The notes: generated by a model from the letters alone, not told the origin. A DNA stretch of 64,000 nucleotides from Bacilli bacterium (GCA_017450205.1 JAFSVF010000001.1:1-64000), one strand, 5' to 3'. Counted from the stretch's first letter, positions 37,925 through 64,000 are shown. Made by a program: numbers and translations.

Positions 37925-40900
37925 ATGAAGAATAAGTTTAAGTATATATCAACATTTATATTAATTTTAATGTTTATCTTATTTGGAAGCATTATATATA
38001 GTAATTTCAAGATAGATAAAACAAGCAAAATCATCAGTTATAATGATTCTTTATTTGATGCAACGGATGCATCGTTAGCTGCACTTTATATTTATAAAGG
38101 TAGTAATCCAAGTCCAACGACTTTATTACATGAACTTTCAGATACAGACTTTGGAAGTGATACTACTTTTTCTTTTGACGTGGATTGGGATGTCTTTGAA
38201 ATTACATTATCTGTAGCAGCAAACGATCCGTATGCTAAGGCAATTGGCGGAGGTAAACATCAATTAAAAAAAGGTATTAATAATATACCTATTACTGTTA
38301 TACCTAAAACTGGGTCATCAGTAGTTTATACTGTTCAAATTAATAGAAAAGATATACCATCAGGTACACATACAGCCTTATTGTATTCATTTACTATAGC
38401 TAAAACTCCTGAATATCTACTTGATCCAACAAAAACGTCATTTACATATACTATTCCAAGTGGATGGTATTTTATAGATATTACTACAGTTCCTTATGAT
38501 GCAGATAACACAACAATTACATATGAAGGATTTGAATATGTTCCTGAAACAAAAGATTGCTATATTCATGTAACTAATAATGTTACAAGTGAAAAGAAAG
38601 ATTATAAAATTACATTAGTTAAAAAGAATGCTACTGAAGCGAACAATTATAATTATAATGGTGGAACTTATACTTTCAGTGCACCTTATGCAGGTTATTA
38701 CAAATTAGAAGCATGGGGAGCTCAAGGTGGTAGTGATGGAAACCGTGGAGGATACGGTGGATACTCTATGGGAATTATTAACCTTGATGTTGGTAATAAA
38801 TTATATGTAACTGTTGGTGGAGCTGGAGCCGACTGCTGGAGTGGATCAGGTGGTGGATATAACGGTGGTGGTGGAGCTGGTAACTACGGCTGCTCAGGTG
38901 GCGGTGGTGGAGCTACACATATTGCTTACACAACAGGAGACTTAAAGAGTTTTAAAGATAAAATGAATCCTTATGATGTTGATATAGAAACATCAAGATC
39001 ATCAGAACTTATTATGGTTGCCGGTGGTGGTGGAGGATCAGGATGGTACTCAGCTGGTGGATCTGGTGGAGGATTTAAAGGAACAAAAGGAGAAACTGAT
39101 CAAGGTGGTACTCCTGGTTCTCAAGCTAATTACGGAAATGGTCTTTCACCTGGAGCTTTTGGTCAAGGTGGTAATAGAACAAACGGTGATGGTGCCGGAG
39201 GTGGAGCTGGTCTTTACGGAGGTGGAGCTGGTTTCGGTGACTACGGTGGTGGTGGCGGTTCTGGTTATATTGGAAACGCTAACTTAATATCAATTTATAA
39301 ATATACAAAACATATGACTTGCTATATGTGTGATGAAGCTATTGGAAATAGTGAAAACACATTTAGTGAAATAAAAACTTATTCAACTACTGCAGTAAGC
39401 AGAGATGCACTTCCTGATTATGCTAAACGTGGTAATGGATATGCTCAAATAACTTTCTTAGATTTAAGTGAAAATAAATATTTAACTGACTTAAGAGTAA
39501 TACAACCTCTTCAACAAACTGTAATTCCGTTTGATGGAGACGAAGAGTTTGCTTATGATAATTTAGATTATGAAGTTACTTTACCTGCAAATCAAACTAA
39601 AATTGAAATAGTTCCTAGATCTATTGATTCAAAAATGACAATCTCAGGTGATATTGGCGAAGTAAGAGTTCCAGGTGGAACACATGAATTCAAGATTATT
39701 TGTACAAGTGAGCTTGGTACTACAACTACTTATACAATAACTACACATAGACCACCATCAACAGAAAAAAGTGTTGATGCTATTAACATTCATGGTTTAA
39801 TTGAAAATTATTGTAAATTAGATTTTGATTCAAATTTCGATTTCTCATATAATGACGATGATTTAATTGATTTTTGTCAATTATATGCACCTAATTCAAT
39901 TATGGATCAAAATGATGAAGATCCATCCACAAATCCTGAAAAAGTAACTTGGGATAGAAATCAAAATGATTATGATTTATATGTTCCAGCACGTATCAAA
40001 GAGTTAAGATTTGAAGTTGTTTCAGATAATGAAAATCAAAGTGTAATCGGTGGTGGAGCAAATAGAACTTTAGTTCCTGGAGATAACTATTTAACAATAG
40101 ATGTAGTTAGTGAGGCTTGCTATCTAGAGTTCCCAGAATTAGATATCCCTGAAGATAGAAAAGAAGAATGTACTCTAGGATATACCTATAGAGTATATAG
40201 AGATTACTATCATGATGCTGACCTTTCTGAGTTATATATTGATACATCTCAAGTAGAACAAGGAATCGCAGAATCAGGTAGATATTTCGACCTTAACTTT
40301 ACTGATCCTGGAGTATTAAATTATTATTTCTCAGTTCCATATACATGGGATAGTGTTAAATATTTAAATTATAAAGCTGATATCTTACATGAAAACTATG
40401 CAGGATTAGAAATCCTTGAAAACTTTAATGATGCAGTTGTTGAAATTCATGGTAATGAAAACTTCGAAATTGGTAAAACTAACATTGTTGAAATTGTGGT
40501 TCATGCACCAGATTCTAACCAAGAATATAATACAACTACTGAGGAAACTGAGTGGTCAGGTACAACGCAGACTTATTATCTACACGTATATAGGGAGTAT
40601 AGTAATAACTCATTATTACAAGAATTACATTATTTAAATAAAGATGTTGTTGAAATTCCAATATCACCAGCATTTAGTCAAACTAAATTTGACTATGCTG
40701 TTACAGTTCCAACTAATAATGATATTGGATATCTTAAATTTAAACCACAAGAAAATTCTACATCAGTAAGAATTTATAATAGAACAACTAATACAGAATT
40801 AAGTAAATCTGTATCTACATTATTTATATATTTCTCTGAATTAAATCTAAGACGTGGTGAGAATTATATTGAAATAGAACTTACTGCTGAAGATGGAGAA

Positions 40901-46900: not shown

Positions 46901-49138
46901 GTTGCAGTAACAGCAGATTCGGGTGACATAAGAACTTATACTGTTAATATTTTCAAAGAATATAAGACTATTTCAACATTAAAAGCTTTATATACAAGTT
47001 TTAATGAAAGTGCAGAAGACGGTGGAGCACAAATTACAGGTGATGGATATTCTCCAGAATTTAATGAAAAAACTCTTCAATATTATGAAGAAGTTCCATA
47101 TCGTGAAAATGGTACATATACGGTAGTTCCATTTAGAACCGATAGTTCTTCTAAGATGACTTATAGTTCTACTACTAAATTAAAAGAAGGAATAAACGAA
47201 ATTCCTATCACAGTAACAGCTGAAGATGGAGTTACTAAAACAACATATATGGTTTATGTAACTATGACTAAGAAACCTTCTTCTAAATTAAAAGATTTAT
47301 TAATTACTGAAGGTGAGATTGATCCTGTATTTGATCCTGATACATATACATACTATGTCGAAGTACCAAATGAAATTACATCATTAAGTTTTTATAATGA
47401 AATGTCAAATCCAATAGGAAAAGGATATGCAATTCCTGAGGATGAGGATTCAACAGTTTCAATTACAGGAAATTCAGGATTTACTGAAAATGGTATTTCA
47501 ACTGTAACTATAACAGTTACTAATCAAAATGCTGTTCCTTCAACTACAACTTATAAAGTTGAAGTTTATAGAAGTATCGCTGGAGATGAAAAACTTTCTA
47601 ATCTTTATATTAAAGATTATCCAATGTCTCCTTCATATTCACCATTAACACTTTTCTATCAAAGAGAAGTTGAATCAACTGTAGATTTTGTTACAGTTGG
47701 AGCATTTAGAAGTACTGAAGATGCTACAATTTCAATTGATGGAGTAACAATGGGTGGAACTGGTGGAGAAAAACTAGTTAACTTAGACTTTGGTAAGAAC
47801 TATGTACATGTTAAAGTAGTAGCTTCTAATGGAGCAAAGAGAACATATACAATTGAGATTACTCGAAAAGATACAGCTAACTTCTTAACAGAGTTAACTT
47901 CTAATGCTGGAGAATGGACATTTACTCCAACTGAAACTTCATTAAAAACTAAGTTTGATTATGAATTAACACTTCCAAATGGTGTTACTGAAATTAAATT
48001 AAAAGGTAACTGGAGTGAAGGAGCAACAGTAGATAACTTAGATAAAGTGTTTAATACTGTAACTGTTCCTCCAGCATCAAATCTACTATATAAAATCAAT
48101 GTAACAAGTGCATCTGGAGAAATTAATACTTATACTATTACAATTCACGGTGCTGTTTCAGGAGAAACAGATATTGACTTAGATACTGATAAAGGGAAAC
48201 CTTCATATCTAGGAGATAATAAATATGAATTAACAGTTAAAGATGATGATTCTACAATTGTACTTGATGTTAAGACTAAGGATGAAGGAGCAACAGTTAA
48301 GTTACAACCATTCTATGCACTTAAGTATGGTGAAACAGTAATTACGTTTACTGTAACAAGTAGTGATGGTAGTGAAACTCAAACTTATACTCTAACTGTT
48401 ACTAGAGGAAAAGATATTGAAAAGATAGTTCCTTCAGATGAAGAAATCGTAATTGTAGTATCTGAAGAATATACACTTACTTATACAATTGAACCTCCTG
48501 ATGCAACATCAACTGATGTTACATTTGTAAGTCTTGATAATACTATCGCTTCAGTAGATCAAGATGGTAAAGTTACAGGATTAAAAGAGGGAGTAACTAA
48601 GGTAGAAATAAGAAGTGTCAAAGATCCTGAAATCAAAGGTATAGTTTCAGTATTTGTACTAAATAAAAAAATAATGAGTGATACATATCATGTAGTACAT
48701 AAAGATGAAACAGATAATCAATATAACCTATACAATTTAGATTATGTATTTGGTGCTCAACCAAAAACAAAAATTGATGATTTTCTAGATAACTTTACTA
48801 ATCCAGCTACATACTTACATGTTTATAGTAATGGAGTAGAGCTAACAGATTATACTCAATTTGTTGGAAGTTGCTTAGTACTTAAACTTGAAATAGCAGG
48901 TAAATTATATGATGAAATAACAATCATTGTTAAGAGTGATATTGGTACATTAGATTCTCCTGGTGATGGTATTAATTCGGCATCAGACGTATCTACTGCT
49001 AATAGTGTTTCATCTGGTATCTTATCAGCAACTAATATTTATAAAGCAATTATTGATGTTAATAATGATGGAGTAATTTCTGCATCAGATATTTCGGTAA
49101 TTGATTCTTATAATAAGAGTATAATTAAAACAATTTAA
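37925..49138 (+). CDS. Giant surface protein: ~30 cadherin-like repeats, ALK-like glycine-rich domain, Ig-like domain, C-terminal dockerin
   Basis: The 3,737-residue product begins with a membrane or signal segment (FKYISTFILILMFILFGSII). Two cadherin-like beta-sandwich repeats precede a glycine-rich domain at about residues 239-513 (YYKLEAWGAQGGSDG, LYVTVGGAGADCW, ATHIAYTTGDL, MVAGGGGGSG). It matches the C-terminal domain of the protein at 31713-35357. About 28 further cadherin-like (PF12733-type) repeats of 90-110 residues follow, each ending in a pattern like TAEDGTATSIYTVNVFRKY. An Ig-like Big_2-type domain (TSTDVTFVSLDNTIASVDQD, ~3500-3580) and a dockerin-type module (IDVNNDGVISASDISVIDSY at the very end; its first EF-like loop is degenerate) complete it. 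No catalytic domain is seen. ATG at 37925 is favoured over GTG at 37916 by ribosome-site spacing (AGGAT). Confidence 0.9.
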   Translation: MKNKFKYISTFILILMFILFGSIIYSNFKIDKTSKIISYNDSLFDATDASLAALYIYKGSNPSPTTLLHELSDTDFGSDTTFSFDVDWDVFEITLSVAANDPYAKAIGGGKHQLKKGINNIPITVIPKTGSSVVYTVQINRKDIPSGTHTALLYSFTIAKTPEYLLDPTKTSFTYTIPSGWYFIDITTVPYDADNTTITYEGFEYVPETKDCYIHVTNNVTSEKKDYKITLVKKNATEANNYNYNGGTYTFSAPYAGYYKLEAWGAQGGSDGNRGGYGGYSMGIINLDVGNKLYVTVGGAGADCWSGSGGGYNGGGGAGNYGCSGGGGGATHIAYTTGDLKSFKDKMNPYDVDIETSRSSELIMVAGGGGGSGWYSAGGSGGGFKGTKGETDQGGTPGSQANYGNGLSPGAFGQGGNRTNGDGAGGGAGLYGGGAGFGDYGGGGGSGYIGNANLISIYKYTKHMTCYMCDEAIGNSENTFSEIKTYSTTAVSRDALPDYAKRGNGYAQITFLDLSENKYLTDLRVIQPLQQTVIPFDGDEEFAYDNLDYEVTLPANQTKIEIVPRSIDSKMTISGDIGEVRVPGGTHEFKIICTSELGTTTTYTITTHRPPSTEKSVDAINIHGLIENYCKLDFDSNFDFSYNDDDLIDFCQLYAPNSIMDQNDEDPSTNPEKVTWDRNQNDYDLYVPARIKELRFEVVSDNENQSVIGGGANRTLVPGDNYLTIDVVSEACYLEFPELDIPEDRKEECTLGYTYRVYRDYYHDADLSELYIDTSQVEQGIAESGRYFDLNFTDPGVLNYYFSVPYTWDSVKYLNYKADILHENYAGLEILENFNDAVVEIHGNENFEIGKTNIVEIVVHAPDSNQEYNTTTEETEWSGTTQTYYLHVYREYSNNSLLQELHYLNKDVVEIPISPAFSQTKFDYAVTVPTNNDIGYLKFKPQENSTSVRIYNRTTNTELSKSVSTLFIYFSELNLRRGENYIEIELTAEDGEAMSTYTLVVNRLLSNDSSVNDIKAHTDSIYWSLMPDFDPDTTTYDIFVDKGTEYIDFDVTTNDEGAVVEVAEGRYLTAGVNEKTIKITSEDGTTYKTYKFRIHREPYDIATLDNIIVTSASGSNFGEVLTLTPTPFDPGVFSYSLTVPNETFMVDITPVKTNKFAKVNTNYNQNASVRLNEGMNKFTFEVVSESGTVISNYELKIFRTINEDLSLKNLKLDAYSSFYSMNSVKSMNEPVSDTLNEYTVTVEYYYNQGTLQVEPTNEFSNVIGTLTKELNYGPNEFNFTVKNEGETSSLDYKVTVTRIFNPDVGLADLWIEDEWGTQHPLTPDFNPMVLNYTGNISNGSNLVKIHAVPSSKTASVKGTGSKTLNYGLNTYEVKVTNFDSETNLSYTETYELKITRNLGSLACLSYLELYYPISGGRDTKWSRYYPETCESGEYNIYVRNAKQLHVYYVNHYRRVTSVTTDGTWTGFTKGNTYVSHVYVTSQDGSTTNTYTFNIMFPEWVGSKYLTNIEVFDDTDTNIYQLNPAFDKESSGPYTVVGTNVPTLNVPYEIERVNIKATKEDDAASVIGDGWVSLKTGDNEKTITVTSAESGEVMTYTLNINREHGHDATLSDLYFKYNSPWDFISTEEFDLFESDGVTPRPFNPSDTGPYYVTVSSFANPMSNKYAFATATDPNATVNVPFQVLTTGVYVPYDIEVTAEDGVTKITYHTFIKKLMGTDAHGASLCVYNATENKCEEMYATPPEGDLLEGVSFNPMRHDYYVVVNSTFGDYLNTSNVLFETIDYSATTTHLSSPLALVRDTYVTYPIRVVSEDGMSEHIYNVHVKLVLSSDPRIKTVTLSRGFLLNAGTFKKGYDPEETANTEYFWIIDDAYYDAMTDANLEYTMFHPRATSVQTYDADNKIITVNTTSEDGNYSLTYKFMMKKKTKVDVTANSLEIKDPNYSDTLVPGTYPSNYFDGTYKYDPELEDFVFQYTTHIYKSTNELKIDFVPNNPLVNVNPSLASPIPITSDVQDIIFNVTSEDGAFTAPYTIHVIRDIEIDYQIEDLELLDEWNVCEFSCNIRPIFDPTKRVYTSDIPAEYENMFFQVGFKNDQQTAEFFLIDPDSGTQTPIKNRMYNTSEGANDLIQEGYVFPTGLSQVQIIIHDGLGYPTTSYTVMVYKGRSHDASLTDLSVWEVDESPKEYPLDNLFDPNKFIYGIEVPEGTTEVDIRYEKASPNASVIIQGNTGLTTGINQATVTVLAEDEYTQLTYDVYIDVGGSYRSWLASLTVSTGLKFHDLLPDFYKMKTEYTVVVPSETSKVIVEGTPESSEVAVVGNNTYELATGNNRIVITGKYYSSSDPDTVLNETPYIINIYRRYPNNVRLAYLSVEEGSLSPEFDMGTTNYSVTVPAGTNKLTLHYYPEVENASVIVSGNSNLKTGYNIVSLAVISEGGTLTKTYQLSVFVKPSNDATLSMLDVYNNVNKEIRYGVDKFDSKVHDYMIEVPADVDSVYVVGTPSVANSYVEGGGVNGLQYGDNYIDLKITAEDGTATSIYTVNVFRKYNLLLKELNHDLSYPLVPDFDPLVNDYEIEVPYDVKVIQFNAVAQAGSAVTLSYSSVNFLEIGENVVTFIISDPKGNTNVYTVNIKRIGSANNFLANLVPGQGMLLEDFYKTDQTYTLALPNNLKSLDLEDWIIVPEDETSTYEVKGYDKINPESDNNKITITVTSQNGSKRTYTLNIEFRDPAFFKHYLSALWVDDGNLSPKYDVDIISYTVTLPYGTDKTTIHAIPMLESDKVFIDGDETQEKEVNLSFGRNVFKIKVDSGATGYKIYTLIIYRTSAPDPTLASLIVTSTDGSVHTYTPIFNKLITAYYLTIPSSIKELKVNYLPSDPKSTVVVTGYKDFEMDKDNIINVEVTAPDGKTKRTYKIHVTLEADKDNYLTDLQVSGYELKPAFKMTDTGSYEVKVENNVSKVLLYADASSPTAAVTINSISNTYSGIDIVSGTISLSAGNNYVQVAVTADSGDIRTYTVNIFKEYKTISTLKALYTSFNESAEDGGAQITGDGYSPEFNEKTLQYYEEVPYRENGTYTVVPFRTDSSSKMTYSSTTKLKEGINEIPITVTAEDGVTKTTYMVYVTMTKKPSSKLKDLLITEGEIDPVFDPDTYTYYVEVPNEITSLSFYNEMSNPIGKGYAIPEDEDSTVSITGNSGFTENGISTVTITVTNQNAVPSTTTYKVEVYRSIAGDEKLSNLYIKDYPMSPSYSPLTLFYQREVESTVDFVTVGAFRSTEDATISIDGVTMGGTGGEKLVNLDFGKNYVHVKVVASNGAKRTYTIEITRKDTANFLTELTSNAGEWTFTPTETSLKTKFDYELTLPNGVTEIKLKGNWSEGATVDNLDKVFNTVTVPPASNLLYKINVTSASGEINTYTITIHGAVSGETDIDLDTDKGKPSYLGDNKYELTVKDDDSTIVLDVKTKDEGATVKLQPFYALKYGETVITFTVTSSDGSETQTYTLTVTRGKDIEKIVPSDEEIVIVVSEEYTLTYTIEPPDATSTDVTFVSLDNTIASVDQDGKVTGLKEGVTKVEIRSVKDPEIKGIVSVFVLNKKIMSDTYHVVHKDETDNQYNLYNLDYVFGAQPKTKIDDFLDNFTNPATYLHVYSNGVELTDYTQFVGSCLVLKLEIAGKLYDEITIIVKSDIGTLDSPGDGINSASDVSTANSVSSGILSATNIYKAIIDVNNDGVISASDISVIDSYNKSIIKTI
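38643..39465 (+). other. ALK/LTK-type glycine-rich domain within the giant gene
   Basis: The region encodes the module described for the giant protein. It has more Gly (GGT/GGA) codons than any other part of the gene and locally raises the G content. A second copy of the module is at 34525-35354. Confidence 0.7.
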
Positions 49139-49167
49139 AAGAAGATTTTTATAAAATCTTCTTTTTT
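49137..49167 (+). terminator. Terminator of the giant gene
   Basis: AAAAGAAGATTTT-TAT-AAAATCTTCTTTT is a 13-bp stem with a T-tail beginning in the stop codon. Confidence 0.88.
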
Positions 49168-49169
49168 CA

Positions 49170-49178
49170 TGTTATAAT
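49170..49178 (+). promoter_or_regulatory. Extended -10 promoter
   Basis: TGTTATAAT starts three bases after the preceding terminator T-tract, 16 bases before the next ATG. Confidence 0.55.
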
Positions 49179-49193
49179 TTTTATGGTGATAGT

Positions 49194-50282: not shown

Positions 50283-50287
50283 AAATG

Positions 50288-50317
50288 ACTTGAATATATA
50301 GAATTCAAGTTTTTTTT
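50288..50317 (+). terminator. Terminator
   Basis: ACTTGAAT-ATATAGA-ATTCAAGT is followed by a run of T. Confidence 0.85.
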
Positions 50318-50371
50318 GTGATAAGATTATAATATAAAATAGGGTAAAAATATAGTGAGGATAGAGTTTAT

Positions 50372-53300
50372 ATGAAGAAAAGGGTTAACATTTATACTTT
50401 ATTATTGATATTAGCAACATGTTTTAGTTTAGGATTGAAAGAGGTAAGTGCGGAAAATGTTGCGCATTACTTTGATGTGTACAAATGCCCTGTAAGTTCT
50501 GATGATTATGAAGCTGAAGCTGAAGATTGTCTTCTTGCTTATGAAAACGGTGAATTAGACTCTTATCATATAGCTAATAATGGTAATTTATCTTTACATG
50601 GCGATGCCGAAGGACAATATAAAAACTTAATTTTAGTAATTGGTAAATTAAATGTTAAGAATAATGAAATTCGTAGTTTTAATACAACATGGAATTGGGA
50701 TCCTAATGTCTTATCATTAGTTTATAGTGATGGTTATTCGGATGGTCACGTATATGATGCAAGTCCATTTAATCTTCCTTGTTATATAGATAGAAGAGGA
50801 AACAAAGAACCTAAATGGACAACAACAGTTAACTTTATGAGATATTCAGCAGAAGGTGTTGGAGTTCTTTTAGCAGCTAATGCATCGAATGATAATGCTT
50901 ATGATATTAAAACATCTAATACTGAAGGTGGAGTTGTAGAATATTTTAAAGAATTATTCTTAGTTAATCCGGAAGCTGAAGTTGGTACTTATACAAATAT
51001 TATAATGAATAGCTCAGATAAGCAATTTGCTGAAGCAACAGATGCTAATCTTGAAGCTGTAGATTATGATGTTAATAATTATAGATTAAAAATATATGGA
51101 ACTGAGGAAAACGATGCTACTTTAGGAACATTAACAGTTTCAGAAAATAGTACAAGTGAAACACCTTATACCTTAACTCCTGAGTTTGAAGCGGGACAAT
51201 CTACAAATGTTGATTATAGAGTAGTTATTCCATATGATATAACTAGCGTTTATGTTGCAGGTACAGCAAACTCTATTCATGCTAAATCTATTAATGGAGA
51301 ACTTGGAACAACATTTAATGTTACATATTCAGACTTACAAGTAGGTGTTAATGAAAAAACTATTGTAGTTTCTGCTGCTAATGGAGATACGTTGACGTAT
51401 ACACTAGTTATTTATAGATTATCTAATGATGCTACATTAAAGACATTTACTTTAACTGATACTGATATTTCATTTAATGAAACAGTTGATTTAATTAATA
51501 CAAAAGCGTATACAGCTACAGTTCCTTATAGAATCGGTCATACTACAATTAATGCAGAAACAAATTATGATGGTGCATATATTGGAGTTGATGAAGAATC
51601 TACAATAATTTCTCAAGATTGGGAAATTGATCCTGATGTACTTGGTTCAACTACTACAAGAGTAGTAAGAGTATATTCTGAAAACTGTAAGTATGACTAT
51701 ATTAATTTAAATGGTAATACAAGTGATAAGTGTCAAACTAATACTTATTCAATAGCTTTAACTAGAGAACCAGCATCAACTGATTCTTCATTAAAAACTA
51801 TTTCAGTTGTAGCTAATGAACAATTAAAAACTTTAAATAAATCAACATATACAGTTGGTGGTCAAACATATGATTTATATGAAGTAACTGATAATATTGC
51901 TAATGCAATAGATAAAGTTACTATTAATGTATTAGCAAATGATGAATTTGCTAATGTTATCTCAGGAACTGGTGAAGTATCAATCAATGTTGGTGATAAC
52001 TACTTACCAGTAGTAATTAAAGCCGAAGATAATTCAACTACAACATATTATGTATATGTACATAGACTTAATAATAATGCTAGATTAAGTGCTTTAAATG
52101 TAACAAGTAACCCTGTTGGTACATTTGCACCAGGATTCGATTCAAACTATACAAATTACTATACATATACTTATGATGCAACTGTATCAAATGTAACAAT
52201 TACAGCTGTTACAAGTGATCAAACATATGGTAAAGTTGCTATTAATGATGTTACTTCAGGATCGACAATTACTCCTAATGAAGCAACACCTAAAACACAA
52301 ACTCAAACATTTAATGTTTCAAGTAGTGATGTTAATATCGTTGTTACTGCTGAAGATGGAACAGTTAATACATATATTCTTTACTTGACTAGAACTAAAT
52401 CTTCAAACAGTTACTTAGCACAATTGAAATTACAAGAAACAGCATTAAATGAATTATTTACTACAAAGAAAACAGATTATACTTCATCAATTGATGGTGA
52501 ATATGATACTGTTACACTTCAAGCAAGACCTAGTGTTGTATATTCAAATATTATTAGTGTTAGATTGAATAATGTTGAAGTTCCATTTACTGCTAATCCT
52601 CAAACTAAAGCAATTGAGGTAGAGTTAACTGGTCTTCAATTTCCAAGTCAAGCAAGACCAACAAACTTAATTCAAGTAACAGTTCAATCTGAATCGCAAG
52701 ATGAAAGAACTTATACAATTGAATTAACAAGAGATCTTTACAAGATTGCAACATTAGAAAGTTTAAGTGTCCCAGGATATGCATTTAATGAACAATTTAA
52801 TCCTGATGATTTAAATTACACAACAAGTCAAAACGTTCCTTATGCTACAACTTCAGTTGAAGTAAACGGAATGATTACAAATGAATATTCAACTGTTAAA
52901 TTCTATGATGATAATGATCAAGAAATTACTCCAACAATAGATTCGGTTGAATCAAAGAAATTCAGTGGTAATATTCCATTACATACTGGTGAAAATACAA
53001 TTAAAGTTAAAGTATATGCTCATAATACATCTGAAGAATATACTAAGACATATACTATTAAATTAAATAGAACAAAAAATACTAATACATCAATCACTTC
53101 GATTTTAGTTAATGGTTCATCTAATACACCAACATTAAATCCTGGTGATGGTAAATGGTATGTAATAGTTCCTAATAGTAAAAAAGAATTATTACCAACA
53201 GATGTAACAGTTGTTAAGAGTGATCAAAACGCAACAGTTACTAAATCACCTAAGATTGAATTATCAACTAAACAAGATAATGAGTATAAATTTACAGTTA

Positions 53301-56300: not shown

Positions 56301-59113
56301 CTTCAGTTACAAATCAATCAAGAGCTACTATTTCATCAATCAAAGTTAATGGATCAACTATTACTGATGATACAAAGATAAATAGTTATGAAGGTTATGT
56401 TGGATTAGTAAGTAATACAGCTAACTTAGTACTAATTACAGTATTATCTGAAGATACATATTCATCTACAGTTTATAGATTAACTATTAATAGAGCTGCT
56501 AATAATGATAACAAGTTATCATCGTTAAAAGTTAAAGGAATTGAATATATCAATGAGAATGATGTCGGTTATGAAAATTCAATGTACTTAGATGAAAACG
56601 GTGATTATAGAGTAGATGGAATAGTAATTCCTAACTTTAAATCAAGCATTGATGTATCAGCAATTAAGAATGATGTTAATGCTACATTTAATACTAAATT
56701 AAAAATAGAAAATGGTAGTGAATCTACAGTTCAACTTGGAGATATTAATATCCCAGTTGGAAGAAATGAAATTACAATTACTGTTACAGCAGAAGATGGA
56801 ACTTCTATTCAAAAATATATTGTAGAAGTAACAAGAGAACCGTCAAACGATGCATCAGCAACATATGTAATGTTCTATGATCAATTATATACAATTCAAG
56901 AAGATGTATATGATTATTACTATGTAGTAACTAATCCAACTTTAAAAGAAATAAATGATGAAGACGTTACAGTAACTACTGCATCTATTGGTGCAACAGT
57001 AGAAAAACCTGGAAAAGTAGAAATTGTAACTTCTGCTAATAATCCAGCACATTATACATATTATGCAACAACTTATACATTTAAAGTTATTGCAGAAGAT
57101 AAATCAACAGAAAAAGAATATACATTTAATATCCATAAAGATTATTCTTCTAATGCAAATCTTAAGGCAGTTAATTTAAGCAAAGGTACTGTAAGTCCTA
57201 AGTTTAATCCTTCAGTTGCATCATATACAATTACACTTCCATATGGAACATCAACATTTGAAGTTGAAGGTATTCCAGAAGAAGAAACTACTAAAGTAGT
57301 TGGTAATACAATATATAACTATGAAGATAACTTAGTAATTCAACTTAAGACTACTGCAGAAGATAATGAAACAACACAAACTTATAAATTCGCAGTTATA
57401 ATGGCTGAATCTACAGATGCATATCTTAACTCGCTTTCAGTAGTTAGTTATTCATTTGAACAAACATTTAAAAAGACATTATTTAACTACAATATGGAAG
57501 ATATAAGTTTTGGTACTACTCATTTATCAGTTGCCTACACCAAATCTAATAGTGCAGCAACAGTTGTTTGTGATATGGATGGTACTGTTGATAACTGTGA
57601 AGCAATGGAAGTTCCACAAACTGTAGGAACACATAGAATTACAGTTAAAGTAACAGCAGAGGATGCAGTTACAACTAAAACTTATACAATTGACTTTAAT
57701 GTAATTCCATCTGCAAATGCATATCTATTAGATTTAACAGCAACTGATTCTGAAGGTAAATCATTACCATTTGGATTCTCAAGAGCTATTTATTCAGGAT
57801 ATGTAATTACAGTTCCTTATACAACTAAGGAAGTTACATTTGAAGCAATTGCTACTTCTGAATATGCAACTTTAGAAATTGGTACATCTAATTCTAATGG
57901 AGCATCTCAAGAACCAATAAATTATTATCAATATGAATTTACATTTGAAAATCTTGTTGTAGGACAAAATATAGTATATGTAAAAGTAATACCTCAAGAT
58001 CCAAATGCACAAAGTAAAACATATACAGTAATCATTAATAGAGCTAAGAGAGAAGCTTCTAAAGTAACTACATTATCAAGCTTAGAAGTATTAGATCCAA
58101 AAGGTAATGCATATACAATAGATCCTGCATTTACTCTAGATAATGATACTTATGATATTGGAACAATCCCATACTTAGATTCAACAGCAACAGTAAATGT
58201 TACCCCGACAGATAGTAATGCTAATATTCATTATTTAGTTAATGGTATTGTTCAACCAACAAATAATGTTACAGTTCCTATTACTACTGGTAATGGATAC
58301 ATTCAAATAATTGTTATTGCAGAAGATGGTGAAACAACTCAAACATATACAATTAATTATAAGAAAGAAGCTTCTAACAATTGGAAGTTATCTGATCTTT
58401 ATGTATCAAATCAATCATTTGCGTTTAATCCTAATATTCAAGATTATAAATTTACATATGATTTTGATGTAACATCAGCAGTTATTTCATTTAAACCTCA
58501 AGTTGATGGTTCATCAGTTAAAATAGGAGAAATGAAATATAATGCGCCATTAAATTTATTACAAACTTATACAGTTCCATATTTAAATATTGGAGAAAAT
58601 GAAATAATGATTGAGTGTACTGCAGAAGATGGTACACCAGGATATTATAGAATCATCCTTGAAAGAGAAGCTTCTGATCAAGTAATTACATCTGAAGCAT
58701 ATGGACATCAAATTACAACACCTGAAGATGGCGCTGTAGGATTAGTCCTAGATGTAGCTCGTGGAACTACTGGTGGAGTATTAAAAACTCAATTAGATAA
58801 TGATGACTCTTTAATAAAGATATTTGATAAATTAGATAATGACGAAATTCCAGATGGTGATCCACTTGGAACAGGAATGATTGCAAAATTAATAATTAAT
58901 AAAAATGAAGCTGATAGAAAATTATTAGTAGTCCCTGGAGATTCAAATGGGGATACTGAAGTAGATATTTATGACTTACTTGCTATAGTAGACCACATTC
59001 TTGAAAGTACACTTCTTGAAGGTCCATACTACGAAGCTGGTGATTATGATAGAACAGAAGAAGTAGATATTTACGATTTATTATCAGTAGTTGACGTTAT
59101 TATTAATAGTTAA
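50372..59113 (+). CDS. Giant secreted protein: cohesin-like N-terminal domain, ~24 cadherin-like repeats, C-terminal dockerin
   Basis: The signal peptide (MKKRVNIYTLLLILATCFSL, cut near VSA|ENV) is followed by a domain at about residues 28-245. It has a Cys pair (YKCPVSS; EDCLLAYENGELDSY) and a cohesin-like strand order: KNLILVIGKLNVKNNEIRSF, TTWNWDPNVLSLVYSD, a KELFLVNPEAEVGTYTNII-type strand near the end. About 24 cadherin-like repeats follow. The last 60 residues are a two-loop dockerin: VPGDSNGDTEVDIYDLLAIV and AGDYDRTEEVDIYDLLSVVD. Both EF-like calcium loops look complete, better than in the other giant protein. The 2,913-residue protein has no catalytic domain. The gene starting at 63155 is a paralogue of its N-terminus. 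Confidence 0.9.
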   Translation: MKKRVNIYTLLLILATCFSLGLKEVSAENVAHYFDVYKCPVSSDDYEAEAEDCLLAYENGELDSYHIANNGNLSLHGDAEGQYKNLILVIGKLNVKNNEIRSFNTTWNWDPNVLSLVYSDGYSDGHVYDASPFNLPCYIDRRGNKEPKWTTTVNFMRYSAEGVGVLLAANASNDNAYDIKTSNTEGGVVEYFKELFLVNPEAEVGTYTNIIMNSSDKQFAEATDANLEAVDYDVNNYRLKIYGTEENDATLGTLTVSENSTSETPYTLTPEFEAGQSTNVDYRVVIPYDITSVYVAGTANSIHAKSINGELGTTFNVTYSDLQVGVNEKTIVVSAANGDTLTYTLVIYRLSNDATLKTFTLTDTDISFNETVDLINTKAYTATVPYRIGHTTINAETNYDGAYIGVDEESTIISQDWEIDPDVLGSTTTRVVRVYSENCKYDYINLNGNTSDKCQTNTYSIALTREPASTDSSLKTISVVANEQLKTLNKSTYTVGGQTYDLYEVTDNIANAIDKVTINVLANDEFANVISGTGEVSINVGDNYLPVVIKAEDNSTTTYYVYVHRLNNNARLSALNVTSNPVGTFAPGFDSNYTNYYTYTYDATVSNVTITAVTSDQTYGKVAINDVTSGSTITPNEATPKTQTQTFNVSSSDVNIVVTAEDGTVNTYILYLTRTKSSNSYLAQLKLQETALNELFTTKKTDYTSSIDGEYDTVTLQARPSVVYSNIISVRLNNVEVPFTANPQTKAIEVELTGLQFPSQARPTNLIQVTVQSESQDERTYTIELTRDLYKIATLESLSVPGYAFNEQFNPDDLNYTTSQNVPYATTSVEVNGMITNEYSTVKFYDDNDQEITPTIDSVESKKFSGNIPLHTGENTIKVKVYAHNTSEEYTKTYTIKLNRTKNTNTSITSILVNGSSNTPTLNPGDGKWYVIVPNSKKELLPTDVTVVKSDQNATVTKSPKIELSTKQDNEYKFTVTAEDGESSREYTLVITRTKSRENALTGVEIYSSPDGENYLYQDSCVPVNGTCKVTVSSNTTHFKFKTVISEEATISPSDDTVYEMPPSDSTMTKPLAVTAEDTTVANYSIVVERGLSSNPRLSDIKVNGVTVENFDPEEKHYYITYPHAIAQALVSATVEDTGKATIYRAKYNGHTVDGILSNPFDLQCGQENEIIIDVQAENPDVTRSYYLHIIREFNKDADLTNILLDDVGVASFTPSNSSYAASDVDYEKTSIKVTPLLSDTEHGSFTITSVDPTTKEVLYSADSWGNITLNTGDNEIVIAVQAHDPTIKKNYRVYIKRKLNSNINITKVKVAGVEATKEENNIYSVTVPNDVDVANQDNVLFEFAPGVMESDPDPTYEVTSKNLLTTVVSNAVTVVVTAPDGVTDEIITVNVTREKSNKASLHELTLSSGGELGTFSPLFVSDDESKDTIEYEVTVPKNNDYFTIGYSLTDKEHITDEKAVVTCELNDEVVECSEQMGIDAISGLAVVKINVTSEDETFTRTYVITLARQKSSDTTLKTLIIRNYAGEQEEIPQEIIDGVVNVHAPANVNDVTLEIVPNSPYATIEKILMNSQGVTFNESLDHLTYGAILNDLSYDAYPEGLNIVIITVLAEDGSKEDHPILLYRNYNNDTTLKSYKVDNEEQISNFENTATRLYEYRYNNVEYNKTYIEIINETTDSYAEYSISGGESIENIENGYKVNLKTGSNAIVTTVTAQDGTVGYYYFYVTRRKNNDTSFNSIYISDKKASCNLTTRICTVVVPNETYEVNNDNVRVDFNPTAADYDVEPKYSVQTTVLNEGIITNVMMSVTAEDGTVKDYIIKVTRAPSDISTADNIIVSTDVDKNGSFTPAFKKDVLEYTVGIDSTADEFTIVVEKTNDNAVVTGDGTYSFTNDDPDDHEKIVIPIHITSQSGLTETEYTLTIVRGLNTIATLGNLKVYDDDEKINEYTLNPVFVADNVTKVDYEMDVAGDVETVYISTSVTNQSRATISSIKVNGSTITDDTKINSYEGYVGLVSNTANLVLITVLSEDTYSSTVYRLTINRAANNDNKLSSLKVKGIEYINENDVGYENSMYLDENGDYRVDGIVIPNFKSSIDVSAIKNDVNATFNTKLKIENGSESTVQLGDINIPVGRNEITITVTAEDGTSIQKYIVEVTREPSNDASATYVMFYDQLYTIQEDVYDYYYVVTNPTLKEINDEDVTVTTASIGATVEKPGKVEIVTSANNPAHYTYYATTYTFKVIAEDKSTEKEYTFNIHKDYSSNANLKAVNLSKGTVSPKFNPSVASYTITLPYGTSTFEVEGIPEEETTKVVGNTIYNYEDNLVIQLKTTAEDNETTQTYKFAVIMAESTDAYLNSLSVVSYSFEQTFKKTLFNYNMEDISFGTTHLSVAYTKSNSAATVVCDMDGTVDNCEAMEVPQTVGTHRITVKVTAEDAVTTKTYTIDFNVIPSANAYLLDLTATDSEGKSLPFGFSRAIYSGYVITVPYTTKEVTFEAIATSEYATLEIGTSNSNGASQEPINYYQYEFTFENLVVGQNIVYVKVIPQDPNAQSKTYTVIINRAKREASKVTTLSSLEVLDPKGNAYTIDPAFTLDNDTYDIGTIPYLDSTATVNVTPTDSNANIHYLVNGIVQPTNNVTVPITTGNGYIQIIVIAEDGETTQTYTINYKKEASNNWKLSDLYVSNQSFAFNPNIQDYKFTYDFDVTSAVISFKPQVDGSSVKIGEMKYNAPLNLLQTYTVPYLNIGENEIMIECTAEDGTPGYYRIILEREASDQVITSEAYGHQITTPEDGAVGLVLDVARGTTGGVLKTQLDNDDSLIKIFDKLDNDEIPDGDPLGTGMIAKLIINKNEADRKLLVVPGDSNGDTEVDIYDLLAIVDHILESTLLEGPYYEAGDYDRTEEVDIYDLLSVVDVIINS

Positions 59114-59123
59114 AATATTAAAT

Positions 59124-59156
59124 AAAGAGTTGACTATTTACTATAGTTGACTCTTT
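59124..59156 (+). terminator. Hairpin between the giant dockerin gene and the cohesin operon
   Basis: A 14-bp stem with two G-U pairs (59124-59137 with 59143-59156) is followed by a poor T-tract (TATG). It may be a weak terminator or a processing site. Confidence 0.5.
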
Positions 59157-59194
59157 ATGTTAATATAAAAATAGAAAATAGGAGAGTGTTGAAA

Positions 59195-61426
59195 GTGAGA
59201 AAGAAATTTTTATTATTAATCTTTGCATTCGTTGCGACCATATTTGGAATGAGTGCAATTAATGCTGCAACTCTTGCGGGTTCAACAGCAAAGTATTCCT
59301 TTGAAGGAAAAACAAATATAGCTGTAGGAGATGAAGAAGAATATAAATTATATATTACTACTTCTGCTACTTCATTCTCATATTCAGGTAAAGTGAATTA
59401 TGATTCATCTTACTTAGAATATAAGAGTTTTGAAAAAGGTGATGGTGTTTCATTTGCACCAGCAACAATGAAGTTTGTATACCTTGATATGACTAAATCT
59501 ACTGGTGTAACACCAAATAGTAAGACTTTAGTTGCATCTTTTAAATTTAAAGCTTTAAAAGAAGGTACTACAACATTAACAACATCAGATACTAAACAAA
59601 ACTGTACTAATACAACAACAAATGATGCGTGTGATGTTATTACTCAAGCTAGTTTAACTATTACAATTGGTGGATCTACTCCAACTAGTTCATCTAGTAA
59701 AGCAACTAGTTCATCAACATCATCTAGTTCATCAACATCATCTAGTTCTAGTACTCCAGCTCCTAGTACAAATGCTAAACCAGCAAGTATTAGTGTAAGT
59801 GGATATACAATGAGTCCTACATTTAATGCAGATACTTTAGGATATACTGTTACAGTTCCTGAAAGTGCTACATTTGTAACTATTGTTGTTAACAAAGGTG
59901 AAGCTTCACAAACTGTTACAGGTGATGGAAATTTCACATTAACAGGTAATAGTTCAACTGCTAAAGTAACAATTACAGCAGCTGATGGTGTTACTAAGAA
60001 AGAATATACAATTACAATTAATAAACAAGGTGCTGCTCCAGTATTAGATGGAGATAACACATTAAAAGACTTAACAGTAGGTGGAACTACTATTGAAGGT
60101 TTTGATAAAGATAAAACAAATTATACATTAGAAGTTGGTAAAGACGTAACATCAATTAATGTTACAGGTATTGCTAACTCAGGAAAAGCATCTGTATCAG
60201 TAAGTGGTGGAACAAATCTACAACCTGGAAATAATACAGTAACAGTTACCGTAACTGCTGAAGATGGATCAAAAAGAGTTTATACAATCAATGTTAAAAA
60301 AGAACAAGATCCAGCAACTACTGGTACAACTGGTACTACTAAGAAAGGTGATAAATCAACTACTACAAGAAAACCAAGTAGTGATACTGGAGTTAAAACA
60401 ATCAATATTGGATCTCCACATACAATTACACCAGCATTCTCAAATGATATAGATGTATATAATGTTACTGTACCATATGATGTAGAACAATTAGATTTAT
60501 CATTATATTTAAATGATTCTAATGCTAAATATACAGTGACTGGAAATGAAAATTTCCGTGTTGGAAAAATAAATGTTGTAACAGTTAAAGTTACAGCAGA
60601 AGATGGAACTACAAGAACAATCATCTTCAACGTAACAAGAACAACTGATGAGGATGGAACAAAACTTGTAGATATCGGTATTGGAGGAGGTTATACTCCA
60701 CAACCTGGATTTGATCCAGATATCTTAGGATATACAATCAATGTTCCTGGTAATGTTGATAAATTACCATTAAATCCAACTGCACCTGAAGGCTCAACAG
60801 TTAAAACTTATGGTAATGAAAATCTAAAAGAAGGATGGAATACAGTTTTAGTATCAGTAACTGATAAAAATGGTTATACAAGAACTTATACACTTTCAGT
60901 ATATAAAGAACCAAAAAAGATTTTAGGATTAACTTATAGACAATTTGCTATTGTAGCAGGTATTATTGGAGGATTATTATTAACATTCTTCTTAATCTTA
61001 TTATTACTAGGAAGAAGAAAGAAAGAAGAAGCAGTCGTAGAACAAGCTCCAGTAATTGACTTTAAACCAGAATTTAACTTTGGTTCAAGAAATGGAACTG
61101 ATGATGATACTGTTTATCCAAATGGTATCTTAAATCAAGATTCTAAAGTACAAAAAGATGTTGAATTTGAAAATGCTAATGAAAAAGTACTTAAAGCATT
61201 AAATCCAACAGTAGATTCTGAACCAATTGCAATACCAACTCATGAGGCACCAAAAGAAATACCTTATGATCCATATGATGAAGTTGTAACAAAAGATGAA
61301 TTAATTGATGCAATTGAAGAAGGATTAGAAACTAAAAATCCTGAAAAATTAAAAATGCTTCTTGAACAAGAAGAATTAAATAGAAAAAAAGAAGAAATAA
61401 GAAGAAAAGAAAACGGAGGACGATAG
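59195..61426 (+). CDS. Membrane-anchored cohesin-like receptor with four cadherin-like repeats and cytoplasmic tail
   Basis: The signal peptide (MRKKFLLLIFAFVATIFGMS, cut near INA|A) is followed by a cohesin-like domain at about residues 28-158: EEYKLYITTSATSFSYSGKV, VNYDSSYLEYKSFEKGDG, TLVASFKFKALKEGTTTLTT. A Ser/Thr linker and four cadherin-like repeats come next. One membrane helix (about 584-606) and an unusual ~137-residue charged cytoplasmic tail end the 743-residue protein. Cohesins bind dockerins, so this may be the receptor for the dockerin-ended giant proteins. GTG at 59195 is taken, with AGGAGA ten bases upstream; TTG at 59189 is an alternative. The next gene starts one base after its stop, so the two are coupled. 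Confidence 0.85.
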   Translation: MRKKFLLLIFAFVATIFGMSAINAATLAGSTAKYSFEGKTNIAVGDEEEYKLYITTSATSFSYSGKVNYDSSYLEYKSFEKGDGVSFAPATMKFVYLDMTKSTGVTPNSKTLVASFKFKALKEGTTTLTTSDTKQNCTNTTTNDACDVITQASLTITIGGSTPTSSSSKATSSSTSSSSSTSSSSSTPAPSTNAKPASISVSGYTMSPTFNADTLGYTVTVPESATFVTIVVNKGEASQTVTGDGNFTLTGNSSTAKVTITAADGVTKKEYTITINKQGAAPVLDGDNTLKDLTVGGTTIEGFDKDKTNYTLEVGKDVTSINVTGIANSGKASVSVSGGTNLQPGNNTVTVTVTAEDGSKRVYTINVKKEQDPATTGTTGTTKKGDKSTTTRKPSSDTGVKTINIGSPHTITPAFSNDIDVYNVTVPYDVEQLDLSLYLNDSNAKYTVTGNENFRVGKINVVTVKVTAEDGTTRTIIFNVTRTTDEDGTKLVDIGIGGGYTPQPGFDPDILGYTINVPGNVDKLPLNPTAPEGSTVKTYGNENLKEGWNTVLVSVTDKNGYTRTYTLSVYKEPKKILGLTYRQFAIVAGIIGGLLLTFFLILLLLGRRKKEEAVVEQAPVIDFKPEFNFGSRNGTDDDTVYPNGILNQDSKVQKDVEFENANEKVLKALNPTVDSEPIAIPTHEAPKEIPYDPYDEVVTKDELIDAIEEGLETKNPEKLKMLLEQEELNRKKEEIRRKENGGR
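59711..59746 (+). repeat. Tandem 18-bp repeat in Ser-rich linker
   Basis: TCATCAACATCATCTAGT occurs twice in direct tandem and encodes the Ser/Thr linker of the cohesin protein. The copy number may vary between strains. Confidence 0.75.
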
Positions 61427-61427
61427 A

Positions 61428-63113
61428 ATGTTAAAGACAATTAAAAGAATAAGTATATTTACATTACTTTCTTTAGGACTTTTAATTGTCGCTCCTAAAG
61501 GAGCGCTTGCAGCAAGTGCTTCTCTTTCTTATTCAGGGGAAACGACAATAATACAAGGTAGACAATATACCTATAATATTAGATTAAATGCAGATTCACT
61601 ATCAAAGGGATATCAATTTGATATCTCCTTTGATGGTTCTTATCTACAATTCATGGGATTCTCAAACAAATCTAGTTTAACTTGTACAGCAACAACTAGA
61701 GTAGTTTGTTATTCAATGAGTGGTCCAATTCAAGGAAGTGGAACTATTGGAACAGTTACTTTTAAAGCATTAAGAACTGGTTCTACTACTATTTCATTTA
61801 CTGGTGCCAAAGGTGAAACACAAACAGGTCAATGTAACTTTGGTGCAAACGGACTTGCAATTAGAATTAATGAACCACCATCAGAAAATGCTAATTTATC
61901 TAGTCTTTCTGTAAGTGGGTGTAATATTGGTTTCAATGGTGGAACAAGTTATTCATGTAGTGTTGATGCAAATGTAGGAAGTGTTTCAGTTTCAGCTAGT
62001 GCACAAGATGGTGGAGCTAGAGTAAGTGGAACAGGTAATAAATCACTTAGTTATGGTGTTAACAAAATTAATGTTACGGTAACTGCACCTGCAGGAAACA
62101 CTAAAACATATTCAATTAATGTTACTAGAAAAGATGATAGAAGTAGTAATAATAATCTAGAAAGTTTATCTGTAAGTGATGGATCATTAAGTCCAGGATT
62201 TAGCAGTAATACTACTGAGTATTCTATTTCAGTACCATTTTCTGTAACAAGTTTAAATTTAAAATATAAAGCCTCAGATGGTAAGTCAAAGGTTAGCGTT
62301 CATAACAATAATCTAGAAGCAGAAACTACAACTAATGTTACTATTACAGTAACAGCAGAAAATGGTTCTACTAAGACTTATACAATCAAAGCATCTAGGG
62401 GGAAAGACCCTAACAAAGTATTAAATACAGATAATTATTTAAATAGTTTAACAATCGATACTGGTCTTTTAAGTCCAGCATTTGATAAAGAAACTACTAA
62501 TTATGTAGTTTATTTACCATATGAAGTACAAAAGATTAATTTCAATTATGAAGTTAGTGATACTAAATATGGTGTAGTTAATTTCAATGGCCCAGAAAGC
62601 CTTGGAGTTGGTAATAACGTATATACAATCTCAGTAAAAGCAGAAAACGAGTCTGAAAGAGTATATACAATCACAGTAGTAAGAGCAAAAATATTAAATG
62701 GAGAGTCTAGTACAAATGCACTACTTGCATCATTAACAATGCATAATGGTGAAATGACTCAAAAGTTTGATAGTGGAGTTCATTTATACTACTACAACAA
62801 AAATGCGAAAAAAGACATAACACTTGAAGGAGTTGCTCAAGATCCTGAATCTATAGTTACATATCTATCAGCAGGAGCCGGAGTATATGCAGTTTTAGTT
62901 ACTGCACCTTCAGGTAATATGAGTATATATATAGCAATACCTAAAGAGTTAGGATCGTGGGTATGGATAATTATAGCTTTAATATCTATAGTTCTAATCG
63001 GAGTAATTATACTTATTATTAAAAAAATTAAAGATAAAAAAGATTCTTCAAAATCTTCTAAAAAAGATAAGAAAAACAAGGAAAAGAGTAAGAATGATAT
63101 TGAAGAAGAATAA
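61428..63113 (+). CDS. Second membrane-anchored cohesin-like protein
   Basis: The signal peptide (TLLSLGLLIVAPKGALA|AS) precedes a cohesin-like domain at about residues 30-150: QYTYNIRLNADSLSKGYQFD, ISFDGSYLQFMGFSNKSS, IGTVTFKALRTGSTTISFTG. Four cadherin-like repeats follow (NANLSSLSVSGC..., NNLESLSVSDGSLSPGF, NYLNSLTIDTGLLSPAF, ALLASLTMHNGEMTQKF). The last repeat is divergent. One membrane helix (WVWIIIALISIVLIGVIILI) and a Lys-rich cytoplasmic tail end the 561-residue protein. The ribosome site GGAGG lies inside the end of the upstream gene. It is a paralogue of the preceding protein with the same plan but a much shorter tail. The gene at 63155 follows 41 bases later without a terminator. 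Confidence 0.85.
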   Translation: MLKTIKRISIFTLLSLGLLIVAPKGALAASASLSYSGETTIIQGRQYTYNIRLNADSLSKGYQFDISFDGSYLQFMGFSNKSSLTCTATTRVVCYSMSGPIQGSGTIGTVTFKALRTGSTTISFTGAKGETQTGQCNFGANGLAIRINEPPSENANLSSLSVSGCNIGFNGGTSYSCSVDANVGSVSVSASAQDGGARVSGTGNKSLSYGVNKINVTVTAPAGNTKTYSINVTRKDDRSSNNNLESLSVSDGSLSPGFSSNTTEYSISVPFSVTSLNLKYKASDGKSKVSVHNNNLEAETTTNVTITVTAENGSTKTYTIKASRGKDPNKVLNTDNYLNSLTIDTGLLSPAFDKETTNYVVYLPYEVQKINFNYEVSDTKYGVVNFNGPESLGVGNNVYTISVKAENESERVYTITVVRAKILNGESSTNALLASLTMHNGEMTQKFDSGVHLYYYNKNAKKDITLEGVAQDPESIVTYLSAGAGVYAVLVTAPSGNMSIYIAIPKELGSWVWIIIALISIVLIGVIILIIKKIKDKKDSSKSSKKDKKNKEKSKNDIEEE

Positions 63114-63154
63114 AAATAATAATACAATTATAGTAGAGTGTGAGGATTGATATT

Positions 63155-64000
63155 ATGATGAAAAAATATATAAAAGGATGTATAGGGACATTCATTTTTG
63201 TCCTATTATTTATGGTATTTGTAGTACCAGTATATGCAGATGGTATTACGTCAATAAGATCATATATTTGTCCGAATACAGAAGATCTAAATACTGATTC
63301 AGCAGATAATTGTGCAATCAGTTTACAAGATGGTGATTATGATTCATTAACTGAAATCACATCTTCAGATACAGTACCTGAATTCTATGATCAAGAGAAT
63401 GGTAAGAAAACAATAATAATAGTAGAAGCACAATTAGATACTAATGATGTTTCTAATGTTTCAAATTATAATGTTTCATATCAATATGATATATCGAAAT
63501 TACAATTAATTTATGCCGACAGAGATTTAACACAATTTCCAGTTACTAAAAATAAAAGAGGTGTTATTACAGCTTATAACTGGAATGTAGCAGTAGTATA
63601 TGGTAACTTAGGCGGAGCTGAAGTATATGGTTCTGGTCAAGAAGCTCCAGAAGAATCAGAAGTTCAACCTGGAATTATTAAAGTTACAGCTGGTACTACA
63701 ACAGCAGGCCAATTCTTACTTCCTACTGATGATGCACCTGGTCCTTATAGTATTTATTTAGCATTTGAAGTTAAAGATGGTGCTAAAGGTGATTCTTCAA
63801 TTACGTTTTATGATGAATATCCTAAAAAACAATGGGATCAATTAGCAACTTATAATTCAGGAACAATTGGTGAAAGTGATATTAATGCTGATGTTGAAAG
63901 TACGTTCACAATCGGTAGTTCAGTAGAAGTACCTGCAGCAATTACTAAACTTGAAGTATATGATAATAGTAGTAAATCAAAATTATATCCATTTGGAACT
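63155..64000 (+). CDS. Paralogue of the 2,913-aa protein, N-terminal part (runs off right edge)
   Basis: The first 282 codons are visible. A signal peptide (FVLLFMVFVVPVYA|DG) is followed by the same N-terminal domain as the gene at 50372: a Cys-Pro motif YICPNTED, a second Cys (SADNCAISLQDGDYDSL) and cohesin-like strands (KTIIIVEAQLDTNDVSNVSN, YQYDISKLQLIYADRDLT, IYLAFEVKDGAKGDSSITFY). A linker leads into what should be the first cadherin-like repeat (ITKLEVYDNSSKSKLYPFGT). By analogy the missing part would hold more repeats and a dockerin. It is the third gene of the cohesin operon. The ribosome site GAGGA precedes the first ATG by 8 bases. Confidence 0.85.
   Translation, partial: MMKKYIKGCIGTFIFVLLFMVFVVPVYADGITSIRSYICPNTEDLNTDSADNCAISLQDGDYDSLTEITSSDTVPEFYDQENGKKTIIIVEAQLDTNDVSNVSNYNVSYQYDISKLQLIYADRDLTQFPVTKNKRGVITAYNWNVAVVYGNLGGAEVYGSGQEAPEESEVQPGIIKVTAGTTTAGQFLLPTDDAPGPYSIYLAFEVKDGAKGDSSITFYDEYPKKQWDQLATYNSGTIGESDINADVESTFTIGSSVEVPAAITKLEVYDNSSKSKLYPFGT

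Follow-up and report, generated by a model that had tools for sequence, protein, structure and literature searches.

A giant-dockerin and membrane-cohesin locus in a small-genome Bacilli lineage: a candidate non-cellulosomal surface assembly

Genes and features of the locus

We analyzed a stretch of 64,000 nucleotides (hereafter the window) from an uncultured, gut-type Bacilli bacterium (GCA_017450205.1 JAFSVF010000001.1:1-64000), which is part of a 1.41 Mb genome in 28 contigs (G000). Genes were examined from position 36420 onward, and all of them, with the features given below, lie on the + strand. The first, at 36420-37823, we take from its sequence to be miaB. It is followed by P0001 (37916-49138), a class B giant of 3740 aa when read from a GTG start; the first-pass annotation, made from the sequence alone, had begun it at a downstream ATG (37925), giving 3737 aa. 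P0001 comprises an N-terminal hydrophobic segment that looks uncleaved, a glycine-rich, ALK_LTK_GRD-like domain (residues 259-515, 38690..39460; Pfam PF12810, 106.5 bits), PF12733 repeats, a Big_2 domain and a putative, divergent C-terminal dockerin (48962..49108). P0006 (49194..50282), a protein of 362 aa with an N-terminal membrane segment, lies between P0001 and P0002 and has an ortholog at the equivalent position in a related genome (G117). P0002 (50372..59113; 2913 aa) is a class A giant, in which a signal sequence is followed by a probable, divergent cohesin-like domain (50453..51127), PF12733 repeats and a C-terminal dockerin (58934..59089).

Two membrane-anchored proteins come next; both start with a signal-like segment and have a single transmembrane segment in their C-terminal part. 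P0003 (59147-61426) is 759 aa long from a TTG; an alternative GTG start at 59195, behind AGGAGAG, gives the 743 aa annotated previously. Its cohesin (59306..59662) is followed by PF12733 repeats, a transmembrane segment assigned from hydropathy (60938..61021) and a conserved cytoplasmic tail. In the P0003 family, this end of the protein (60938-61423 in the window) is strongly conserved among relatives (YDPYDEVVTKDEL...KLKMLL.QE.LNRKKEE), which suggests an internal partner for the tail. P0004 (61428..63113; 561 aa) carries the second cohesin of this kind (61512..61886). A third giant, of class A and 2363 aa, starts at 63140, runs through the end of the window (64000) and continues to G000:C1:70232; it has a cohesin-like domain at 63236-63940 and a C-terminal dockerin of the same DIYDLL type as P0002, and it had been missed in the first-pass annotation. 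Shortly downstream of this giant (G000:C1:72453-77414; L031:12454-17415), we noted by eye a Tad/Flp-pilus-like gene set with two SAF/CpaB-like proteins, a CpaF-type ATPase and TadB/TadC-like proteins. A promoter and terminator scan of the operon found fewer promoter-like sites than shuffled sequences and six terminator-like sites, against 3.1 expected.

The only Pfam domains found in the giants were PF12733 (24, 18 and 14 stretches), the ALK_LTK glycine-rich domain, Big_2 and Dockerin_1, all of them non-catalytic. The Pfam search detected no enzyme family in the giants, in agreement with the earlier description of dockerin-bearing proteins lacking a catalytic domain. In the five locus proteins it found neither a glycoside hydrolase nor a carbohydrate-binding module. 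A C-terminal membrane anchor and an LPxTG motif are likewise absent from the giants, which leaves the dockerin as the one recognizable anchor at their C-terminus. Their repeats had been described as cadherin-like. We rejected a true cadherin identity, as the repeats are PF12733 and each giant contains one D.ND and no LDRE motif. Calcium dependence, which had been proposed for the fibre as a whole, would accordingly be expected for the dockerin loops only.

Dockerin and cohesin modules and their pairing

The C-terminus of P0002 scored 23.1 bits against PF00404 (cut-off 22.9), a marginal match by itself, and 58.4 bits with a family profile; its two F-hand repeats carry the identical recognition motif DIYDLL. 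That of P0001 scored 21.8 bits, just under the same cut-off, has one canonical and one imperfect calcium loop, and was not matched by the family dockerin profile. This divergent type also occurs in relatives (G117, C17 and C24), and the further dockerins of the genome include those of two more glycine-rich giants (C17, C24). Searched with phmmer against the PDB, the P0002 dockerin alone had no match and the P0001 dockerin had weak matches only. Judged from their sequences, P0002 carries a dockerin at its C-terminus and P0001 what is probably a divergent one, as had been claimed for both.

Across 58 dockerins we found the features of type I dockerins, namely two repeats, 12-residue calcium loops and duplicated recognition residues. 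Positions 10, 11, 13 and 14 are the same in both repeats in 79-88% of the proteins, compared with an identity of 15-34% at these positions between proteins. Repeat-to-repeat matches at the recognition positions amounted to 193 of 232; shuffling gave 59 on average and reached the observed number in 0 of 10,000 trials. Symmetric recognition residues are a known mark of the dual-face recognition surface in type I dockerins.

The N-terminal segment of P0003 reached 26.8 bits against PF00963 (cut-off 24.1), the trimmed domain 28.1 bits and the cohesin as annotated 27.4 bits. P0004 stayed under this cut-off at 19.2 bits; against a profile built from 29 related domains, P0004 itself among them, it scored 111.7 bits. 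Compared with the PDB, this 29-domain profile placed the NagJ cohesin first (E 3e-15), followed by cellulosomal cohesins from E 3e-13. The AlphaFold model of the P0003 cohesin is a beta-sandwich with pLDDT mostly above 85; Foldseek put cohesins on top (best 2jh2, E 4.7e-10, TM 0.72 to the target), and VIA gave Z scores of up to 14.6. P0003 and P0004 therefore begin with cohesins, the former on the basis of Pfam, profile and predicted fold and the latter of the sequence profile, which bears out the earlier reading of the adjoining operon as encoding two membrane-anchored proteins with N-terminal cohesins.

The strongest dockerin in the genome (60 bits) lies outside the locus, on a protein with SH3 and glucosaminidase-like regions, the latter similar to autolysin glucosaminidases (AtlA, E 5e-8). 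Immediately behind it lies another membrane cohesin protein, and after that come what we presume from sequence to be polA and mutM (G000:C22:56033-59697; L034). Such a pair would constitute a membrane-tethered cell-wall hydrolase, and among the genomes sampled this form occurs most often. Consequently, the description of the system as being without enzymes holds for this locus, whereas the cohesin-dockerin chemistry of the organism as a whole is not enzyme-free. A further dockerin in the genome, a weak N-terminal one, belongs to a protein of 809 aa that continues into a pectate-lyase-like (RHGA/epimerase) region (G000:C1:91801-94230; L032:13801-16230).

The cohesin-dockerin contact ranks with the strongest protein-protein interactions known. 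To assess pairing between neighboring genes, we took 86 Pfam cohesins from 117 genomes of the family and counted dockerins lying no more than 400 bases upstream on the same strand. A dockerin was found directly upstream of the cohesin in at least 46 of the 86 cases (42 genomes), where 0.06 would be expected at random, an order-of-magnitude figure that assumes uniform placement and takes as dockerins the matches listed. At least nine more cases have the dockerin downstream of the cohesin in a shared stretch, mostly one open frame, and dockerins are present in at least 57 of the 59 cohesin-containing genomes. A giant with a dockerin followed by a membrane cohesin, often by two, recurs at ten loci, one of them in a 90%-identical relative (L143, L145-L148, L150, L153 and L156-L158, with L147, L148 and L157 representing G038, G099 and G079 again), and the giants' own neighboring cohesins are kept as orthologs across relatives.

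Neighboring modules also covary. In 31 pairs of the glucosaminidase type, with the upstream enzyme controlled for, similarity at the dockerin recognition positions tracked similarity of the neighboring cohesin (partial r 0.74; 0 of 5000 permutations). In the same pairs, the recognition residues compared with the rest of the cohesin protein gave a partial r of 0.03, and non-recognition dockerin positions compared with the cohesin gave 0.06. The correlation weakened to r 0.52 when the giants were added. A tree built from the enzyme part implies at least five changes of dockerin class. Of four independent contrasts, an average of 3.7 had the cohesin class shifting in the same direction as the dockerin class and none had the reverse, a number of contrasts that cannot reach significance. 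The covariation thus reflects 4-5 independent switches, which is not enough for a significant tree-based test. Co-transfer of adjacent modules could add to this covariation, but it would not favor the recognition positions alone. When the P0002 dockerin and the P0003 cohesin were modeled as one joined chain, both domains folded well, and the prediction gave no usable interface (pTM 0.54). The pairing proposed by the first-pass annotation is thus supported for neighboring genes by linkage and covariation in sequence, while the joined-chain model does not resolve the docking. On this reading, the neighboring pairs would represent a set with readable specificity codes.

The N-terminal domain of the class A giants and a possible surface fibre

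A profile of the N-terminal domain of P0002, the 2363-aa giant and their relatives aligned with cohesins in hhalign at 92.5%, and its comparison with the PDB ranked cohesins first, weakly (E 0.017-0.04). The domain of P0002 has no Pfam match, and a custom cohesin HMM did not match the giants' N-termini, which were reached by profile-profile and fold comparison alone. Two of 12 relatives of this domain, however, do match PF00963, with E down to 3.7e-5. The AlphaFold model for P0002 is of moderate quality (pLDDT 67.7, pTM 0.73); its 13 best Foldseek matches are all cohesins, led by 5lxv (E 2.5e-7), and VIA likewise listed cohesins first (Z 11.7), with pilin and antigen I/II Ig-like folds at 10-11. 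Since these Z scores are nearly equal, we regard the domain only as likely to be a divergent cohesin-like one, as its profile and predicted fold suggest. If this assignment is right, the class A giants would have a plug, the dockerin, at one end and a possible socket at the other, and the fibre would more likely be a chainable structure than a terminal one.

The order of glycine-rich class B giant, class A giant and membrane cohesin recurs in six genomes (G000, G117, G079, G128, G127 and G125). In each dockerin pair that was read, the recognition motifs of class B and class A differ, for example IY in P0002 versus AS in P0001, and AL versus VK in G079. Taken together, recurring order and differing codes suggest a ladder running from membrane cohesin to class A to class B. 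In G127:C17 (L163, L156), a class A giant and a membrane cohesin are preceded by a class B giant with an open frame of 7154 aa. An open frame of 25,386 aa in G122:C19 (L150) was rejected as an artifact, as that locus carries a masked run of 5559 N.

We propose that P0003 and P0004 would sit in the membrane with their cohesins facing outward. P0002 and the 2363-aa giant, which would be secreted and whose only anchor would be the C-terminal dockerin, may be retained at the surface through binding to these cohesins, with long rows of PF12733 beta-sandwiches forming the shaft. The N-terminal cohesin-like domain of the class A giants might in turn take up a second dockerin-bearing protein; the likeliest candidate is the glycine-rich giant P0001, with a dockerin whose recognition motif is unlike the P0002/2363-aa type. 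The fibre would then run from the membrane cohesin through a class A giant to a class B giant. Attachment, suggested by length, repeats and surface location, or a surface coat would be its likely use. As a whole, this model of a non-cellulosomal cohesin-dockerin surface assembly in a small-genome Bacilli lineage appears to us probable. A further-reaching version, in which class A giants act as very long monovalent scaffoldins that, between membrane cohesin and glycine-rich class B giant, build fibres by stacking, possibly head-to-tail, with one code per step and with the hydrolase tethered in a similar way, is put forward tentatively, at not quite even confidence. If it is true, modular surface fibres would arise from stacked giants, each step being set by its own dockerin code.

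The first-pass annotation had pictured a fibre that terminates at its receptors. Its observations, the modules and their order, are confirmed, and its interpretation is partly supported; it had overlooked both the cohesin-like N-terminus of P0002 and the 2363-aa giant. A terminal fibre nevertheless remains the main competitor of a ladder, and we consider it a serious, if somewhat improbable, alternative. The giants would then dock on P0003 and P0004 and end there, their N-terminal domain being adhesive or merely Ig-like rather than a socket, and P0001 would be anchored by its own uncleaved-looking hydrophobic segment or by another of the cohesins that are present elsewhere in the genome. Such a view would fit the strong divergence of a domain that lacks a Pfam match in the window proteins, as well as the nearly level scores of Ig-like adhesin and pilin folds. 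It accounts less well for the exclusive presence of cohesins among the top 13 Foldseek matches, their first rank in the profile search, the relatives that reach PF00963 and the recurrence of the class B, class A and membrane cohesin order.

A second alternative starts from the glucosaminidase-dockerin pair, the form found most widely among the genomes sampled. In that case the dockerins and cohesins of the locus would cross-react with this pair, and the main product would be a cell-wall hydrolase complex that also takes in the giants. We judge this unlikely, as the glucosaminidase carries the motif IQ where P0002 and the 2363-aa protein have IY, and the giants have neighboring cohesins of their own, conserved as orthologs. 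In a third reading, the modules are folded remnants that do not dock with each other: the dockerin would serve as a calcium-stabilized end cap, and the cohesin would be a generic Ig-like domain. This would agree with some scores lying under the Pfam cut-offs, but it is very improbable, given that neither symmetric recognition residues, nor adjacency so far above expectation, nor specific covariation is expected of end caps.

Relation to known systems and distribution in the lineage

To our knowledge, cohesin-dockerin pairing is nearly always discussed in connection with cellulose degradation. Like the clostridial cellulosome, the ladder that we favor combines cohesins with type I dockerins, places cohesin proteins at the cell surface and duplicates the recognition residues in both dockerin repeats; with a single cohesin and a single dockerin each, its class A giants would be comparable to adaptor scaffoldins. 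Unlike in the cellulosome, the giants of the locus carry no enzyme, no cellulose-binding module was found, each protein has a single cohesin, anchoring is through a membrane span instead of SLH or sortase, and the shaft is made of PF12733 repeats. A cellulosome is defined by a scaffoldin with several cohesins, a cellulose-binding module and dockerin-bearing enzymes for plant polysaccharides, whereas we found single cohesins only; the modules thus belong with cohesins and dockerins outside a cellulosome. The closest solved cohesins to those of P0003 and P0004 are from the Clostridium perfringens NagJ/NagH-type pairs (2ozn, 2jh2, 2w1n). According to the PDB titles, the cohesin there lies within a secreted glycoside hydrolase, whereas here the cohesins are on membrane proteins and their proposed partners are non-enzymatic giants.

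Non-cellulosomal cohesins and dockerins have long been recognized (Peer et al. 2009, cited in PMC9012536). In ANME archaea and their sulfate-reducing partners, non-enzymatic cohesin-dockerin adhesion has been proposed for cell-cell contact, and the scaffoldin-like proteins with dockerin and cohesins described there would resemble ours; these organisms belong to other phyla, and the excerpts of the two papers report no conserved operon of giants and membrane cohesins (PMC9012536, PMC10553843). A giant ORF with nine dockerins is known from Omnitrophota (PMC10066038). It shares with our case a giant surface protein, non-cellulosomal dockerins and a small-genome bacterium, but the excerpted text describes no neighboring cohesin receptor system. 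Ruminococcus champellensis has dockerin-bearing cell-wall hydrolases (cited in PMC6403190), so that a dockerin on peptidoglycan hydrolases is found there as in our glucosaminidase pair, although in that species it is reported as part of a cellulosome and here belongs to a two-gene, membrane-tethered pair. Non-cellulosomal cohesin-dockerin systems are therefore known, and what is new here is the variant with giant-dockerin and membrane-cohesin proteins in this lineage.

At this locus, parts best known as the plug and socket of cellulose degradation seem to serve the construction and anchoring of surface fibres that lack enzymes. Cohesin-dockerin pairing looks like a general means of surface assembly in a streamlined, uncultivated gut lineage, and it offers a testable hypothesis for how giant non-enzymatic proteins may be anchored without sortase or S-layer motifs.

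Among 193 genomes sampled from the order, 119 gave a match with the family cohesin profile. Across the class, it matched 27 of 296 genomes at E <= 1e-6, of which 21 fall in the window's own family; cohesins are rare in the rest of the class. In size, class and range, the host lineage appears to fit the uncultivated order RF39, a Bacilli order with highly reduced genomes (PMC6784871). Our search of the open-access literature, subscription papers and preprints lying outside its range, found no paper combining RF39 and dockerin. The relatives are MAGs labeled Bacilli, Bacillales, Tenericutes, Erysipelotrichaceae, Clostridia or Ruminococcus, together with three titled Candidatus Saccharibacteria (L151, L152 and L153). 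The latter contain P0003 relatives and dockerin giants, with clear cohesins in L153, and reflect either horizontal transfer or mislabeled bins.

Two further arrangements were seen among the relatives. In the core pairs (L034, L103-L131), the dockerin class switches with that of the neighboring cohesin, at least five times on the enzyme tree, and the switches look as if dockerin, stop, signal peptide and cohesin had traveled as a single cassette. In L167 (G118:C44:30000-49900), at least four neighboring proteins end in a near-identical dockerin (NIKDAMEIMYIVTGRK); one protein there is transglutaminase-like in appearance and one has both a cohesin and a dockerin, forming a small scaffold cluster.
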